This document shows positions 5,963-44,616 of a DNA stretch of 64,000 nt, piece after piece. The translations under genes and the position numbers were made by a program. Positions within the stretch are counted from its first letter, which is position 1, and each line of letters begins with the position of its first letter. The notes under the pieces were generated by a model. That model did no database searches. It saw only the letters and a list, made by a program, of their open reading frames with translations, and was not told the origin of the DNA. Source of the stretch: Actinomycetota bacterium (lineage in GTDB: Bacteria > Actinomycetota > JAHEXW01); assembly GCA_025355855.1 (NCBI GenBank), contig JANXYU010000003.1, forward strand, positions 24,713-88,712, read 5' to 3'.

Positions 5963-6024
5963 CCCAGCTTCTCGCTCCATTACTTTCAATCATCGAAGTG
6001 CCCCGCTCAGATGCGCGCCGTGTA

Positions 6025-6151
6025 TACTTCACCACTACGTAGCGCTGAAGTGTTGCGCGTCGTGTACATACTTCACCACTACGTAGCGGTGAAGTATTGC
6101 CCATCCTTAGGATTATTTGCGCGTCGCGTTTTAGTGCTTTAAAGCACTAAA
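6025..6151. repeat. Paired-palindrome intergenic element, copy 1
   Basis: 6025-6055 TACTTCACCACTACGTAGCGCTGAAGTGTTGC; 6068-6097 ATACTTCACCACTACGTAGCGGTGAAGTAT (near-perfect palindrome); 6130-6151 TTTAGTGCTTTAAAGCACTAAA (perfect). Confidence 0.8.
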
Positions 6152-17796: not shown

Positions 17797-19149
17797 ATGA
17801 GACGCAGAGCTACGCTATTCCTGTGCTTAACGACAACGGCCATCGTCATGCTCTGCTTGAACGGTCCGGCGTCGGGCGCCGATGTCTCACCCGCCGCTTG
17901 GCAACTTGATTCCTATTGCCGCGGCTGTCACACCACCCTGCATACCCAATGGAAGACCTCTATGCATGCCCAGGCGTTTGAGGACGAAATCTATCAAAAG
18001 ACCCTGAATCTAGCGATTACCGATCTCGGGGGACCAACCAACGCGGACGCCAAAGACCTGCAAGTATTCTGTCTAAGCTGCCATGTTCCAATCGGCAAAC
18101 TAGCCAACGACTTGCCGCCGACGACGGCCTCGTCCGCAACGGCGGTCAGCTGTGATTTTTGCCACACGGTTAGCGGAACGAACGGCATCGGTAACGCGTC
18201 CTTTATAAATACCCCCGGTGACGTCAAACGCGGTCCATATTTTGACGCCATATCGCCGGCTCACGACACAACTCTGTCAACCCTGCACACGCAATCTGAG
18301 TTTTGCGGTATGTGCCATGACGTTTACCACCCGACCAACGGAATACCGCTGGAACAGACCTATACGGAGTGGAAGAACAGTCCCTACGCAGCCAAGAATA
18401 TCCAATGCCAGCACTGCATGATGGGGGAGATGAGAGACACCCAGGCTGCCGATTCCGGACCCAAGCGCAAAGTGGTGTTCGCCCACTTCTTTGCCGGCGG
18501 GAACTTCATCAAAGGCAATAAGGACGAGTCGCTAAAGAGCCTGAAAAGCGCCGCTACCATCAAGCTGATCACCGACAAAGGTAACGCCAAGCCTGGAGAC
18601 GCCGTCAAGGTTGACGTTACCCTGACTAACTCCGGCGCCGGTCACAAGATCCCCACTGGGTTGACCGAAACACGCGATATGCGCCTGATTATTATGGCCA
18701 TTAGTGCTACGGGACAACAAACAAAGGTGTTCGAGGAGAAATTCGGAACCGTCATGGAGGACGCGGCCGGCAAACACGACGGCACCGTTCCCGTCTGGCG
18801 AGCGGTCAAGATATTCTCCGACAACCGTCTCGCGCCTGAGGAAACACGCGCCTACAACAAGACATTTACGATTCCTGCAGGAGCCAAAGCCTCCTATCGC
18901 TTTGAAGCGGCGTTGAAATACAGTCCCGCCAACCAAGAGTCGACAGACGCGATCGGCATGAAGCGCTTGCCGTTCGCTGTAATGGCATCGGCCGCCCAAA
19001 CTGTTTTGTTGCCGGGAAAGATACCGACCGCCGCCTCGGCTGTCAAATCAAGCCGAGTCGTTCCGTGGTTTATATGGGTCGGCATCGCCGCGGTGATCGC
19101 TATCTTTTTGGCTGGCACCTGGATGATCAGACGTAAACCGCAAGCCTAG
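17797..19149 (+). CDS. Membrane-anchored multiheme c-type cytochrome (c554-like)
   Basis: Signal peptide; four CxxCH (CRGCH, CLSCH, CDFCH, CGMCH) plus CQHCM; C-terminal TM with RRKPQA tail. Confidence 0.9.
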   Translation: MRRRATLFLCLTTTAIVMLCLNGPASGADVSPAAWQLDSYCRGCHTTLHTQWKTSMHAQAFEDEIYQKTLNLAITDLGGPTNADAKDLQVFCLSCHVPIGKLANDLPPTTASSATAVSCDFCHTVSGTNGIGNASFINTPGDVKRGPYFDAISPAHDTTLSTLHTQSEFCGMCHDVYHPTNGIPLEQTYTEWKNSPYAAKNIQCQHCMMGEMRDTQAADSGPKRKVVFAHFFAGGNFIKGNKDESLKSLKSAATIKLITDKGNAKPGDAVKVDVTLTNSGAGHKIPTGLTETRDMRLIIMAISATGQQTKVFEEKFGTVMEDAAGKHDGTVPVWRAVKIFSDNRLAPEETRAYNKTFTIPAGAKASYRFEAALKYSPANQESTDAIGMKRLPFAVMASAAQTVLLPGKIPTAASAVKSSRVVPWFIWVGIAAVIAIFLAGTWMIRRKPQA

Positions 19150-19186
19150 GTAATCTTGGAAACCACAACCTAGAGAGGAGACTTAC

Positions 19187-20512
19187 ATGAAGTTCCGGCA
19201 ACGTATCGAATATCTTCTACCGGCGGTATTGTTGGGCATAATCCTGGTATTCGGCGGCAGCGCGAAGGCCGGGTCGGCTTTTCAAGAACCGGCGCTCTGC
19301 GGCCAGTGCCACACGGACAATATGGCCGAATGGGCCACCTCAATGCACTCTAAAGCCTTCACCAGCACGATCTTCCAGGCGGCTGCCGCCAGACTCGGTA
19401 TAGAGCAAGCCGGAGATCCAAATGTAAGCAATGCGTCCATCCGGAGCGGATGCTATGGTTGCCATTCGCCGGCTAAAGCGCTAACCCAGGCGTCGAGCAT
19501 TTCCGCGACTGATCCCGGGAGCGGAGTGACGTGCGATTTTTGTCATACGGTAAAGGGATATAGCCGCCTCTTCAATGCTGGCTATATCAGCAATGTCGGA
19601 GAGATCAAATACGGACCTTTCGCTGACTCGAAATCCCCCGCGCATAAGGCCGCCAAACTGCCGCTTGTCACCTCATCCGAGTTTTGCGGTATGTGTCATA
19701 ACGTCAAGTTCGGTATGCATAAATTACCCTTTTTGGATACATACACCGAGTGGAAGGCCGGTCCCTACGCCAAGCAGAACATCAAATGCCAGCATTGCAT
19801 GATGGGCGAGAGTAAAAACAAGCGAGCCGCGACCTCGGGTCCCGTGCGCGCCACTGTGTATGGCCATGCGTTTGCCGGCGGCAATGTATTCCAAGGCAAC
19901 ACCGCCGTGGCGACAAAACGACTGAGAAACGCCGCGACTCTGACCTTGACGACTGATTCCGATATGGCCAGACCAGGCGACGAGCTTGGCCTCACCATTA
20001 AGGTCAAGAATTCCGGCGCCGGTCATAAACTCCCGACAGGAATAACGTTCGTACGCGAGATGCGCCTGGAAGTAACCGCCGAGGACGCACACGGCGCAAT
20101 CACAAAAGTGTTCACGGAACGATACGGGACCGTGCTCCAAGACGACAAAGGAAATCATAATAGGGCAGTGGCCTTCTGGAAAGCCGTGAAGATCTACTCC
20201 GATAACAGAATCAAGCCGTTAGAAACGCGCGTTTATGATAAAACGTTTAAGATTCCAGCCACGGCCAAGACGGGCTATAAGATCAACGCCGTACTGACGT
20301 ATCGCTCCGTGAACCCTGATTCGGTTAAGCCGTATGGGCTACCGGAGACAAAACCCGTGACCATGGCCGTCGCCCAAAAAATAGTAACGGTGTCTAATAA
20401 CGCGCCGGGACGATACTCGATTTTGTGGTTGTGGCTCCTCGGCGGCCTGGCCGCTATCGCCGCAATCAGCACTACCGTCTACCTGGTCATCAGGCGGAAG
20501 CCAGAAGCCTAA
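19187..20512 (+). CDS. Membrane-anchored multiheme c-type cytochrome, paralogue of the previous gene
   Basis: Same architecture: CGQCH, CYGCH, CDFCH, CGMCH plus CQHCM; C-terminal TM with RRKPEA tail. Confidence 0.9.
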   Translation: MKFRQRIEYLLPAVLLGIILVFGGSAKAGSAFQEPALCGQCHTDNMAEWATSMHSKAFTSTIFQAAAARLGIEQAGDPNVSNASIRSGCYGCHSPAKALTQASSISATDPGSGVTCDFCHTVKGYSRLFNAGYISNVGEIKYGPFADSKSPAHKAAKLPLVTSSEFCGMCHNVKFGMHKLPFLDTYTEWKAGPYAKQNIKCQHCMMGESKNKRAATSGPVRATVYGHAFAGGNVFQGNTAVATKRLRNAATLTLTTDSDMARPGDELGLTIKVKNSGAGHKLPTGITFVREMRLEVTAEDAHGAITKVFTERYGTVLQDDKGNHNRAVAFWKAVKIYSDNRIKPLETRVYDKTFKIPATAKTGYKINAVLTYRSVNPDSVKPYGLPETKPVTMAVAQKIVTVSNNAPGRYSILWLWLLGGLAAIAAISTTVYLVIRRKPEA

Positions 20513-24323: not shown

Positions 24324-24466
24324 GTCCGACTTCGCGGTCAGCCTCACTAAAACCATCGGCTTCCTGTTGCTTCGCCGGACAGCCTTCGCCAAAGCAACTA
24401 GCTGGCCTGCCAGCCGTAGCCCTTTAGGGCGGAAGCTCCTGCTGGAGCCCAGCCATGGCGAAGGCT
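24324..24466 (-). repeat. tRNA 3'-flanking structured repeat, copy 1 (after tRNA-Val)
   Basis: ~143 bp nearly identical to 25733-25873; outer stem 24380-24390/24458-24468 enclosing three hairpins. Confidence 0.9.
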
Positions 24467-24540
24467 GGTGGGCGATGAGGGATTTGAACCCCCGACCCTC
24501 TCGGTGTAAACGAGACGCTCTCCCACTGAGCTAATCGCCC
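24467..24540 (-). tRNA. tRNA-Val (TAC), CCA encoded
   Basis: Reverse complement GGGCGATTAGCTCAGTGGGAGAGCGTCTCGTTTACACCGAGAGGGTCGGGGGTTCAAATCCCTCATCGCCCACCA. Confidence 0.97.
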
Positions 24541-24685
24541 CAAGAAAGATTAATTATACCAGGGGTTAACGGCGCTGTCTTCAATCGTTCAGTCTCGAAA
24601 CGGAGCTGCCGGGATAGATTGCTTCACAGCATCTTCATATGCGTACGCTAAAGTTATACTGTTGCCCGCGACTGAGAGGAGATGC

Positions 24686-25603
24686 TTGAGGCGCCTACAT
24701 ACCCTGAAAATATCAGCCGTCATATGTTTGCTATGTTTAGGCTTCTTCCTATCTAAGGCGCCTGCCGCTTCGGCGACGTCGGTTGTCATCCAAGCTGGTC
24801 ATGGCGGTTCCGACCCTGGTGCGATTGGTTACGATGGAACTTACGAATCGACAATTAATTTGGCAATTGCGCAGAAACTAAACGCCCTTCTTACCAGACA
24901 TGGCGTTCAAACGATTATGACGCGCACGGACGATACCGATCAGGATCCTGACGCGAACATGGCCATGGCGAATAGCCGCGGTGCAGACGCGTATATTGAC
25001 ATCCACAATGAGGGCAGCGATAACGCTGACGATTCCGGCGATGAAATGTGGTTCGCGCCGAAGAGCGCAGCGGATTTTAAGTTCGCAACCGTAGTTCACG
25101 CCTCGGTAATGCAAGCCATCCGAACCTACGGTTACACAGATGTAATCGATGGTGGTCTGACGCAAGCTGATCCGTCCGATAACTGGATGATTGAACGCGC
25201 CAAGATGCCCGCGCTGATCATTGAATGCCTATATGTCTCGAATGAACGCGAAGAACAACTTGTGCAAACCGACTCATTCCAGCAAGCCTTGGCACGAGGG
25301 ATTTACGACGGAATCGCTGAGTACTTTGGCTTACAGAAAGAAAACACCAGGCAACCGACGGTTCCGAGACCGGCCCGGGCCCGCACTGCCGTTGCCGATC
25401 AAATCGCCAAGCACAGCAGTAACGGGAGTCTCTGGTACGCGCTTGGCGCAACGTTGTCTAAAAATGGGTTCCTGCTTGCAGCCAGCCTATGTTTCTTGGG
25501 CATAATGGGGACCGCAAGCTATTTCGTGGTCAAGAGATATGGCCGTCCGGGGAAAAAGAAGCGAACCTTGACGCGCGGTTATAAAGGCCGCCACAGAAAG
25601 TAG
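24686..25603 (+). CDS. N-acetylmuramoyl-L-alanine amidase (Amidase_3)
   Basis: VVIQAGHGGSDPGAIGYDGTYESTINLAIAQKLNALL, DAYIDIHNEGSDN, ALIIECLYVSNEREEQ; TTG start after gagagga; C-terminal TM. Confidence 0.88.
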   Translation: MRRLHTLKISAVICLLCLGFFLSKAPAASATSVVIQAGHGGSDPGAIGYDGTYESTINLAIAQKLNALLTRHGVQTIMTRTDDTDQDPDANMAMANSRGADAYIDIHNEGSDNADDSGDEMWFAPKSAADFKFATVVHASVMQAIRTYGYTDVIDGGLTQADPSDNWMIERAKMPALIIECLYVSNEREEQLVQTDSFQQALARGIYDGIAEYFGLQKENTRQPTVPRPARARTAVADQIAKHSSNGSLWYALGATLSKNGFLLAASLCFLGIMGTASYFVVKRYGRPGKKKRTLTRGYKGRHRK

Positions 25604-25627
25604 CTCGTGGTCAGCTAGCCAAAGTTG

Positions 25628-25703
25628 TGGTACCCCCAAGGGGACTCGAACCCCTGTCGCCGCCGTGAAAGGGCGGTGTCCTAGGCCACTAGACGATGGG
25701 GGC
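25628..25703 (-). tRNA. tRNA-Glu (TTC), CCA encoded
   Basis: Reverse complement GCCCCCATCGTCTAGTGGCCTAGGACACCGCCCTTTCACGGCGGCGACAGGGGTTCGAGTCCCCTTGGGGGTACCA. Confidence 0.97.
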
Positions 25704-25732
25704 CTAGCGTGTACATAAGCAAATGATTATTC

Positions 25733-25873
25733 GTCCGACTTCGCGGTCAGCCTCACTAAAACCATCGGCTTTCTGTTGCTTCGCCGGACAGCCTTCGCCA
25801 AAATTACTGGCTGGCCTGCCAGCCGAAGCCCATTGGGGCGGAAGTTCCTGCTGGAGCCCAGCCAGGCGAAGGC
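25733..25873 (-). repeat. tRNA 3'-flanking structured repeat, copy 2 (after tRNA-Lys)
   Basis: ~141 bp nearly identical to 24324-24466; outer stem 25789-25799/25865-25875. Confidence 0.9.
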
Positions 25874-25949
25874 TGGTGGGCCGTGAAGGACTCGAACCTT
25901 CCACCCTCGGATTAAAAGTCCGATGCTCTACCAGATGAGCTAACGGCCC
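25874..25949 (-). tRNA. tRNA-Lys (TTT), CCA encoded
   Basis: Reverse complement GGGCCGTTAGCTCATCTGGTAGAGCATCGGACTTTTAATCCGAGGGTGGAAGGTTCGAGTCCTTCACGGCCCACCA. Confidence 0.97.
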
Positions 25950-44315: not shown

Positions 44316-44616
44316 CAGCAACACTTCAGCGCTACGTAGCGCTGAAGTGTTGCTGTTTTATGTGGCGTTGTAGTAATTTAACGCACTAAGGCGGTTTAGT
44401 TAGGTAAAGCGCTCATATTACTTGCCCCGGCCCTGCACTGTTCCCGAAACTCCGCCAACGCGATCTTGGCGATGCGCTACGACACTGGTGATATCTGTCA
44501 ATTAATGAACGAAGTTGCCGCCTATGGCACCGCCGTCAAAATCAAAAAGAAGAGTTAGGCTGATTAGAAAGTCGTTACATAAAAGATTCCGCTTTAGCGC
44601 TTTGCAGCGCTAAAGC
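44316..44616. repeat. Paired-palindrome intergenic element, copy 2
   Basis: 44316-44355 perfect 40-nt palindrome CAGCAACACTTCAGCGCTAC/GTAGCGCTGAAGTGTTGCTG; 44591-44616 GCTTTAGCGCT-TTGC-AGCGCTAAAGC. Confidence 0.85.

Follow-up and report, generated by a model that had tools for sequence, protein, structure and literature searches.

Known elements that target tRNA genes are, for the most part, large and dedicated to a single tRNA gene, and REP-like elements are, to our knowledge, not tied to tRNAs. REPINs/BIMEs are doublets of REP sequences that are moved by RAYTs (PMC3116915, PMC3733652, PMC6006769). In the IS200/IS605 group, the enzymes use a short guide beside a hairpin, which pairs with the flanking target and with the last letters of the element and fixes the cut sites; the known guides are tetranucleotides located 5' of the hairpin (PMC6006769). 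Here we describe E1, a real, tightly positioned and structured repeat family of 46–150 bp that carries no genes and whose host clade is a little-known actinobacterial group.

The window (the whole stretch of 64,000 nucleotides analyzed) holds two E1 copies of ~142 bp each, which share 93% identity across 144 nt (E 7e-57). As a sequence-only reading had claimed, these near-identical repeats begin at the CCA encoded in the genes for tRNA-Val and tRNA-Lys, and reading of the 3' flanks of tRNA-Phe, -Asp and -Glu in the window confirmed that these lack E1. Above the Rfam gathering score the window gave tRNAs only, and no family matches E1. Each full copy consists of two modules, module 2 lying about 30–40 nt downstream of module 1. 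Three models were used: R1 for both modules combined, R2 for module 2 alone and R3 for module 1 alone, the single-module models being built to avoid circularity. Features and model scores were as follows:

24466–24540, minus strand: tRNA-Val(TAC), encoded CCA at 24466–24468 (ARAGORN, Rfam).
24324–24465, minus strand: E1 copy 1, from the first base after the CCA to the end of module 2.
24410–24468, plus strand: module 1 of copy 1, a palindromic unit with its GTAG orientation on the plus strand and the tRNA CCA as outer arm; R1 60.1 bits, R3 66.0 bits, module-2-only model R2 37.6 bits on the plus strand.
24457–24468, minus strand: arm a of copy 1, CCAGCCTTCGCC, beginning with the tRNA CCA.
24410–24421, minus strand: arm b of copy 1, GGCTACGGCTGG, whose TGG complements the tRNA CCA.
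24403–24412, minus strand: conserved palindromic junction of copy 1, TGGCAGGCCA, the same word in nearly all copies.
24380–24390, minus strand: arm c of copy 1, GGCGAAGGCTG, complement of arm a.
24324–24380, minus strand: module 2 of copy 1, the module 1 unit in opposite orientation; R2 55.6 bits, R1 47.7 bits.
25874–25949, minus strand: tRNA-Lys(TTT), encoded CCA at 25874–25876 (ARAGORN, Rfam).
25733–25873, minus strand: E1 copy 2.
25819–25876, plus strand: module 1 of copy 2, tRNA CCA included; R1 48.0 bits, R3 59.0 bits, R2 30.0 bits on the plus strand.
25865–25876, minus strand: arm a of copy 2, CCAGCCTTCGCC.
25819–25830, minus strand: arm b of copy 2, GGCTTCGGCTGG.
25789–25799, minus strand: arm c of copy 2, GGCGAAGGCTG.
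25733–25789, minus strand: module 2 of copy 2; R2 57.5 bits, R1 49.3 bits.

The long arms CAGCCTTCGCC/GGCGAAGGCTG that had been described are present in copy 2 where they had been placed (25789–25799/25865–25875); in copy 1 the second arm had been put one position off, the pair being 24380–24390/24457–24467. The RNA strand of the two copies folds better than shuffles (z −3.2 and −3.7). The proposed three-hairpin cloverleaf is not supported: the minimum-energy folds of copies 1 and 2 are not alike and the family conserves other parts. A count of two copies was also too low: a third close copy (83% identity) sits directly at the CCA of tRNA-Thr(GGT) on another contig of the same genome (C11:37990–38132), and there are many divergent ones. 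Two similar copies spaced 1.4 kb could suggest that a whole tRNA gene was duplicated with its flank, or that the assembly contains a duplication. This is practically inconceivable, since the tRNAs are unlike, the genes between them are single-copy, the third copy belongs to a different contig and other genomes contain dozens of divergent ones; the earlier judgement that whole-gene duplication was unlikely stands. An intrinsic terminator is not supported: on the transcribed strand, neither of the window copies is followed by a T-run. A T-box-like reading of the UGG was dropped because the next C mismatches the tRNA discriminator bases, as was an integron attC, the core sequences of which are lacking by eye. 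The window also contains three good copies of a palindromic repeat, ACTTCAGCGCTACGTAGCGCTGAAGT (6024–6105, 44318–44358), with one more in locus L165, and direct repeats at a spacing of 1381 bp (18294–20068) that suggest a tandem gene duplication.

To locate E1, every tRNA with its flanks was read in three genomes: the host's own (G000; 1.34 Mb, 35 contigs), one of the same genus (G001) and one of the same order (G002). E1 directly follows the CCA of eight tRNAs in G000 and of about ten in G002; G001 has fewer copies, which are decayed. Altogether, the family stands behind about 20 different tRNAs and tmRNA, in the three genomes of the class, all of them E1-positive, and in four genomes of another family in the phylum. 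In the latter family short versions occur in four of five genomes, behind tRNA-Val(CAC) and tRNA-Ala, and two genomes carry a short version behind tmRNA. Left ends were searched with a pattern that did not demand CCA, in a set of loci including every listed genome-wide R1 match in three genomes, the genome-wide counts resting on 150 scored candidates out of about 800. The suspected association with tRNA 3' ends extended to copies elsewhere: among the matches listed, 29 of 35 left ends lie at distance zero from a recognisable tRNA or tmRNA 3' end, two follow apparent decayed tRNA-Met ends (L159:1277 and L180:1501) and four are located elsewhere (L163, L164, L166 and L087). Seemingly orphan copies were found behind a tRNA end duplicated by another element (Met, Thr, Tyr), and another behind the 3' exon of a split tmRNA.

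In the phylum sample, just 5 of 297 genomes gave E1 matches under the stricter filters used for large searches. In IMG/VR, exact-pattern scans with the E1 left end gave no match, and the shorter unit CCTTCGTAGC...GCGAAGGAGG was found there in 6 viral contigs, none with tRNA adjacency; BLAST of copy 1 against phages and plasmids found nothing. A pattern scan of genome contigs returned a sister MAG (JAHEXW01) and one betaproteobacterial match, which was taken as chance because no tRNA lies beside it. In the literature searched, no description was found of such a site preference for any tRNA end.

Conserved across the family are an imperfect hairpin (the CCA arm with GGCTACGGCTGG), a long arm and a second, inverted hairpin module, with the consensus CCA-TTCTTCGCC (or TCC, GCC) ... 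GGCTACGAATGG-CAGGCCA ... GGCGAAGAATG ... GTCCTTCGTAGCC ... GGCGAAGAAGGAC. The outer arm of module 1 begins with the tRNA CCA and its partner strand finishes in TGG. Units are ordered as arm X, GTA, GC, an inner hairpin with a GGA/GGA mismatch, GC, GAA and arm X'. The REP signature is a GT[AG]G tetranucleotide placed 0–2 nt 5' of a hairpin foot; in most E1 units GTAG (GAAG in some) lies directly at the inner GC:GC stem, yet inside the outer arm pair. The junction between modules, TGGCAGGCCA, is almost invariant; in the Tyr copy it is TGGTAAACCA, and a different family has TGGCAAGCCA. When module 1 is read on the opposite strand and module 2 on that of the tRNA, both show one common unit: the module-2-only model recovered module 1 solely on the opposite strand, with up to 38 bits, and the module-1-only model recovered module 2 solely in the matching orientation. 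E1 is one GTAG-bearing palindrome present in two copies of inverted orientation.

The R1 structure shows covariation: 89.9% of its cells are paired, versus 71.4% in shuffles, and 73 cells carry double changes, versus 27.7, while structures slid along the R1 alignment drop to 26–46% pairing. In 28 copies, the arm letters TTC/TCC/GCC are accompanied by matching changes in strand b (TGG-bearing) and strand c (GGCGAAGRRTG), a count to which the CCA:TGG pairs contribute no information, because TGG served to locate the strand.

Two pairs of orthologous tRNAs provided filled and empty sites (slashes mark the borders). At tRNA-Ser(GCT), G000 is filled, CCA/TCCTTCG...GGCAGGCCA/CCTTGTAAA, with 46 nt from the CCA to CCTTGTAAATACATG, and G001 is empty, CCA/CTTTGTAAA, the CCA being followed by CTTTGTAAACACATG. 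At tRNA-Pro(CGG), G001 is filled, CCA/TCTTTCG...GTGGCCA/TCCTTCC, with 89 nt from the CCA to TCCTTCCACTTCGG, and G000 is empty, CCA/TCCTTCC, the CCA being followed by TCCTTCCATTTCGG. Both inserts begin directly after the CCA and end in GGCCA. These two clean cases concern short inserts, the right end of full-length copies not being among them, and each taken alone may also be read as a precise deletion. Similarity is higher among the copies of one genome than between copies at the same tRNA in different genomes: the Val, Lys and Thr copies of G000 are 83–92% alike, versus 69–72% to the tRNA-Lys(TTT) copy of G002, whose own pairs are 86–90% alike (Pro/Leu 90%). At tRNA-Val(TAC) of G001, a decayed E1 is kept behind a later insertion; some copies are old. 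Judged from these comparisons, insertion and within-genome spread are the simplest reading. The exact position at the CCA of about 20 tRNAs and tmRNA, the filled and empty sites and the spread within genomes all favor the mobile palindromic element at tRNA 3' ends that the sequence-only reading had put forward.

Mobility at tRNA 3' ends, the classic sites of integrative elements, raises the question of whether E1 derives, as a remnant or satellite, from elements relying on tyrosine integrases and on attachment sites in tRNA genes, the more so as a second family of these genomes, E2, carries direct repeats of the tRNA 3' end. We consider this very improbable: CCA is all of the tRNA end that recurs at the far boundary in the two E1 empty-site cases, and a single E1 family occupies about 20 tRNAs, while the usual range of an integrase is one.

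E2 itself lies behind tRNAs at L072, L078, L079, L081, L084 and L087 in G001 and at L051 in G000, with empty sites at Gly(TCC) and Arg(ACG) of G000. It often runs from a hairpin starting at the CCA through an antisense copy of the T-arm of the host tRNA and a conserved G-rich core (GAGGGGG...GGAAGGGG...GGGGAAACC) to the direct repeat, which corresponds to the tRNA 3' part, T-arm through CCA; Rfam gave no support to a group I intron reading of E2. A ~210-bp insert stands behind tRNA-Thr(TGT), and after it comes a 21-bp direct repeat of that tRNA's 3' end, CGACTCCCTCCACCGGCTCCA (L003:1040–1267). Tandem arrays with E1 fragments were observed at L018:4466–4803 and L019:1–300 (G001) and at L165:1–300 (G000, contig C22), with units of 236 bp behind tRNA-Val(CAC), where the assembly breaks, and of 147 bp at a contig start. 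The T-loop of tmRNA is split by an insertion in G002 (L193:1817–2100) and G000 (L194). For that of G002 the group I intron score is slightly under the Rfam cut-off (45.6 vs 50 bits; E 1.3e-10), and that of G000 resembles it by eye; the tmRNA of G001 is intact, with a second 3' part and an intron-like flank downstream.

E1 could alternatively be a functional 3' trailer RNA, in which a helix sequestering the CCA (arms a/b) and an alternative one (a/c) would control maturation, access of RNase P or RNase Z, or quality control, its spread being due to gene conversion. Such a switch would be feasible, as arm a starts with the CCA and is matched by two strands; the folds are more stable than shuffles, and all E1 copies lie on the transcribed side of tRNAs. 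Nevertheless, we regard this account as unlikely. Most tRNAs of G000 have no E1, orthologous tRNAs of the sister genome lack it or are followed by unrelated sequence, module 2 is, as DNA, module 1 in reverse complement, so that the internal loops of the two RNA hairpins differ, and gene conversion breaking exactly at the CCA between unlike tRNAs is itself improbable. The trailer RNA for processing or termination that had been offered as a second option is weakened likewise, because there is no U-tract, E1-less orthologues exist and an RNA has no need of inverted DNA modules. Its patchy distribution among orthologous tRNAs speaks against E1 being required. As a 3' trailer, E1 could still sequester the CCA, and an effect on tRNA processing is plausible, because pairing of a 5' leader with the 3' RCCA is reported to inhibit RNase P complex formation (PMC9433436). 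Whether hairpins sequestering the CCA affect pre-tRNA processing is a testable question raised by E1.

Spread might also have involved an RNA step, the trailer RNA being joined, or reverse transcription jumping, to the mature CCA end of another tRNA or tmRNA, followed by recombination of the cDNA. This would explain insertion exactly after the CCA and a site common to tRNAs and tmRNA, though the mature 3' end and the T-arm are all that these have in common. A pair of conserved inverted modules is, however, typical of DNA-transposon ends, and dispersed repeats remote from tRNAs contain E1-like units as well, making an RNA step quite unlikely. The dispersed repeat (L181 and L183, genome G148) is 154 bp long and 96% identical between copies, with a hairpin, CCCACGGCTAAAGCCGTGG, joined to the E1-like unit CCTCCTTCGCTAAAGCTACGGAGG.

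On balance, we think it rather probable that E1 is a mobile DNA element, small, non-autonomous and similar to REPINs, which consists of an inverted pair of palindromes and inserts immediately 3' of the encoded CCA; by analogy, it is probably moved by Y1/RAYT transposases. Insertion behind the CCA of tRNA or tmRNA genes would be harmless because the gene product is complete at that point. We infer that E1 would move as single-stranded DNA, with a Y1 transposase (RAYT or IS200/IS605-like) acting in trans. The UGG beside each hairpin could pair with two CCAs, that of the tRNA at the left end and the one with which the insert finishes (GGCCA), and might act as a guide fixing both cut sites. The guide idea alone does not explain the restriction to tRNAs: CCA being far too common, a further feature, such as the T-arm or transcription or structure there, would have to confine E1 to tRNA-like ends. 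Candidate enzymes exist, G000 encoding two RAYT proteins above the NCBIfam NF047646 cut-off (97.2 and 81.7 vs 80); the host RAYTs are a 152-aa protein of contig C1 and a 292-aa protein of contig C4. Y1 genes are present in five of five E1-positive genomes, which represent two lineages only and make for weak statistics, versus 93 of 297 overall. No E1 units were found flanking the RAYT genes of G000; in G002, one IS200 gene lies ~0.6 kb from the E1 at tRNA-Arg.

More tentatively, the element might recognise tRNA-ness as such, its own UGG pairing with CCA and allowing entry at the 3' end of any RNA gene ending in CCA, with all tRNA families and tmRNA included, possibly through an RNA step; we hold this to be doubtful. 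If true, E1 would exemplify, in nature, how tRNA ends can be recognised in general by a protein-free element that uses the CCA of about 20 tRNAs and tmRNA; it would also provide a defined safe-harbour insertion site, and one such element could use dozens of essential genes as safe harbours.

Among described systems, the group I introns of the tmRNA T-loop (PMC11915505) resemble E1 in invading tmRNA close to the 3' end, and the two share genomes; those introns, however, insert in the T-loop, splice and are unrelated to E1 in sequence. Like integrative elements of tRNA genes, E1 inserts at tRNA and tmRNA 3' ends, but it has neither integrase nor tRNA-end duplication, measures only 46–150 bp and serves about 20 tRNAs with one family. 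The subterminal hairpins, the short fixed target echoed at the right end (CCA ... GGCCA) and a complementary short word beside the hairpin, a possible guide, recall IS200/IS605 elements and their non-autonomous derivatives, whereas the TGG of E1 is located 3' of module 1 on the tRNA strand and members of that group are not known to be confined to tRNA ends. The likeness to REPINs comprises two inverted short imperfect palindromes, in most units with a GTAG close to the hairpin foot though inside an outer arm pair, the inverted doublet with spacer revealed by the single-module models, the non-autonomous nature and the presence of RAYT genes in the host genome. By contrast, REPINs are high-copy, randomly dispersed in intergenic space and often clustered at RAYT genes; E1 has a low copy number, is found almost solely at position +1 behind the CCA of tRNA or tmRNA, adjoins no RAYT gene of its host and has an outer arm pair beyond the GTAG, which is not terminal as in classical REPs. 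Since two features of REPINs, dispersal and RAYT flanking, fail, E1 is not filed here as a REP or REPIN.
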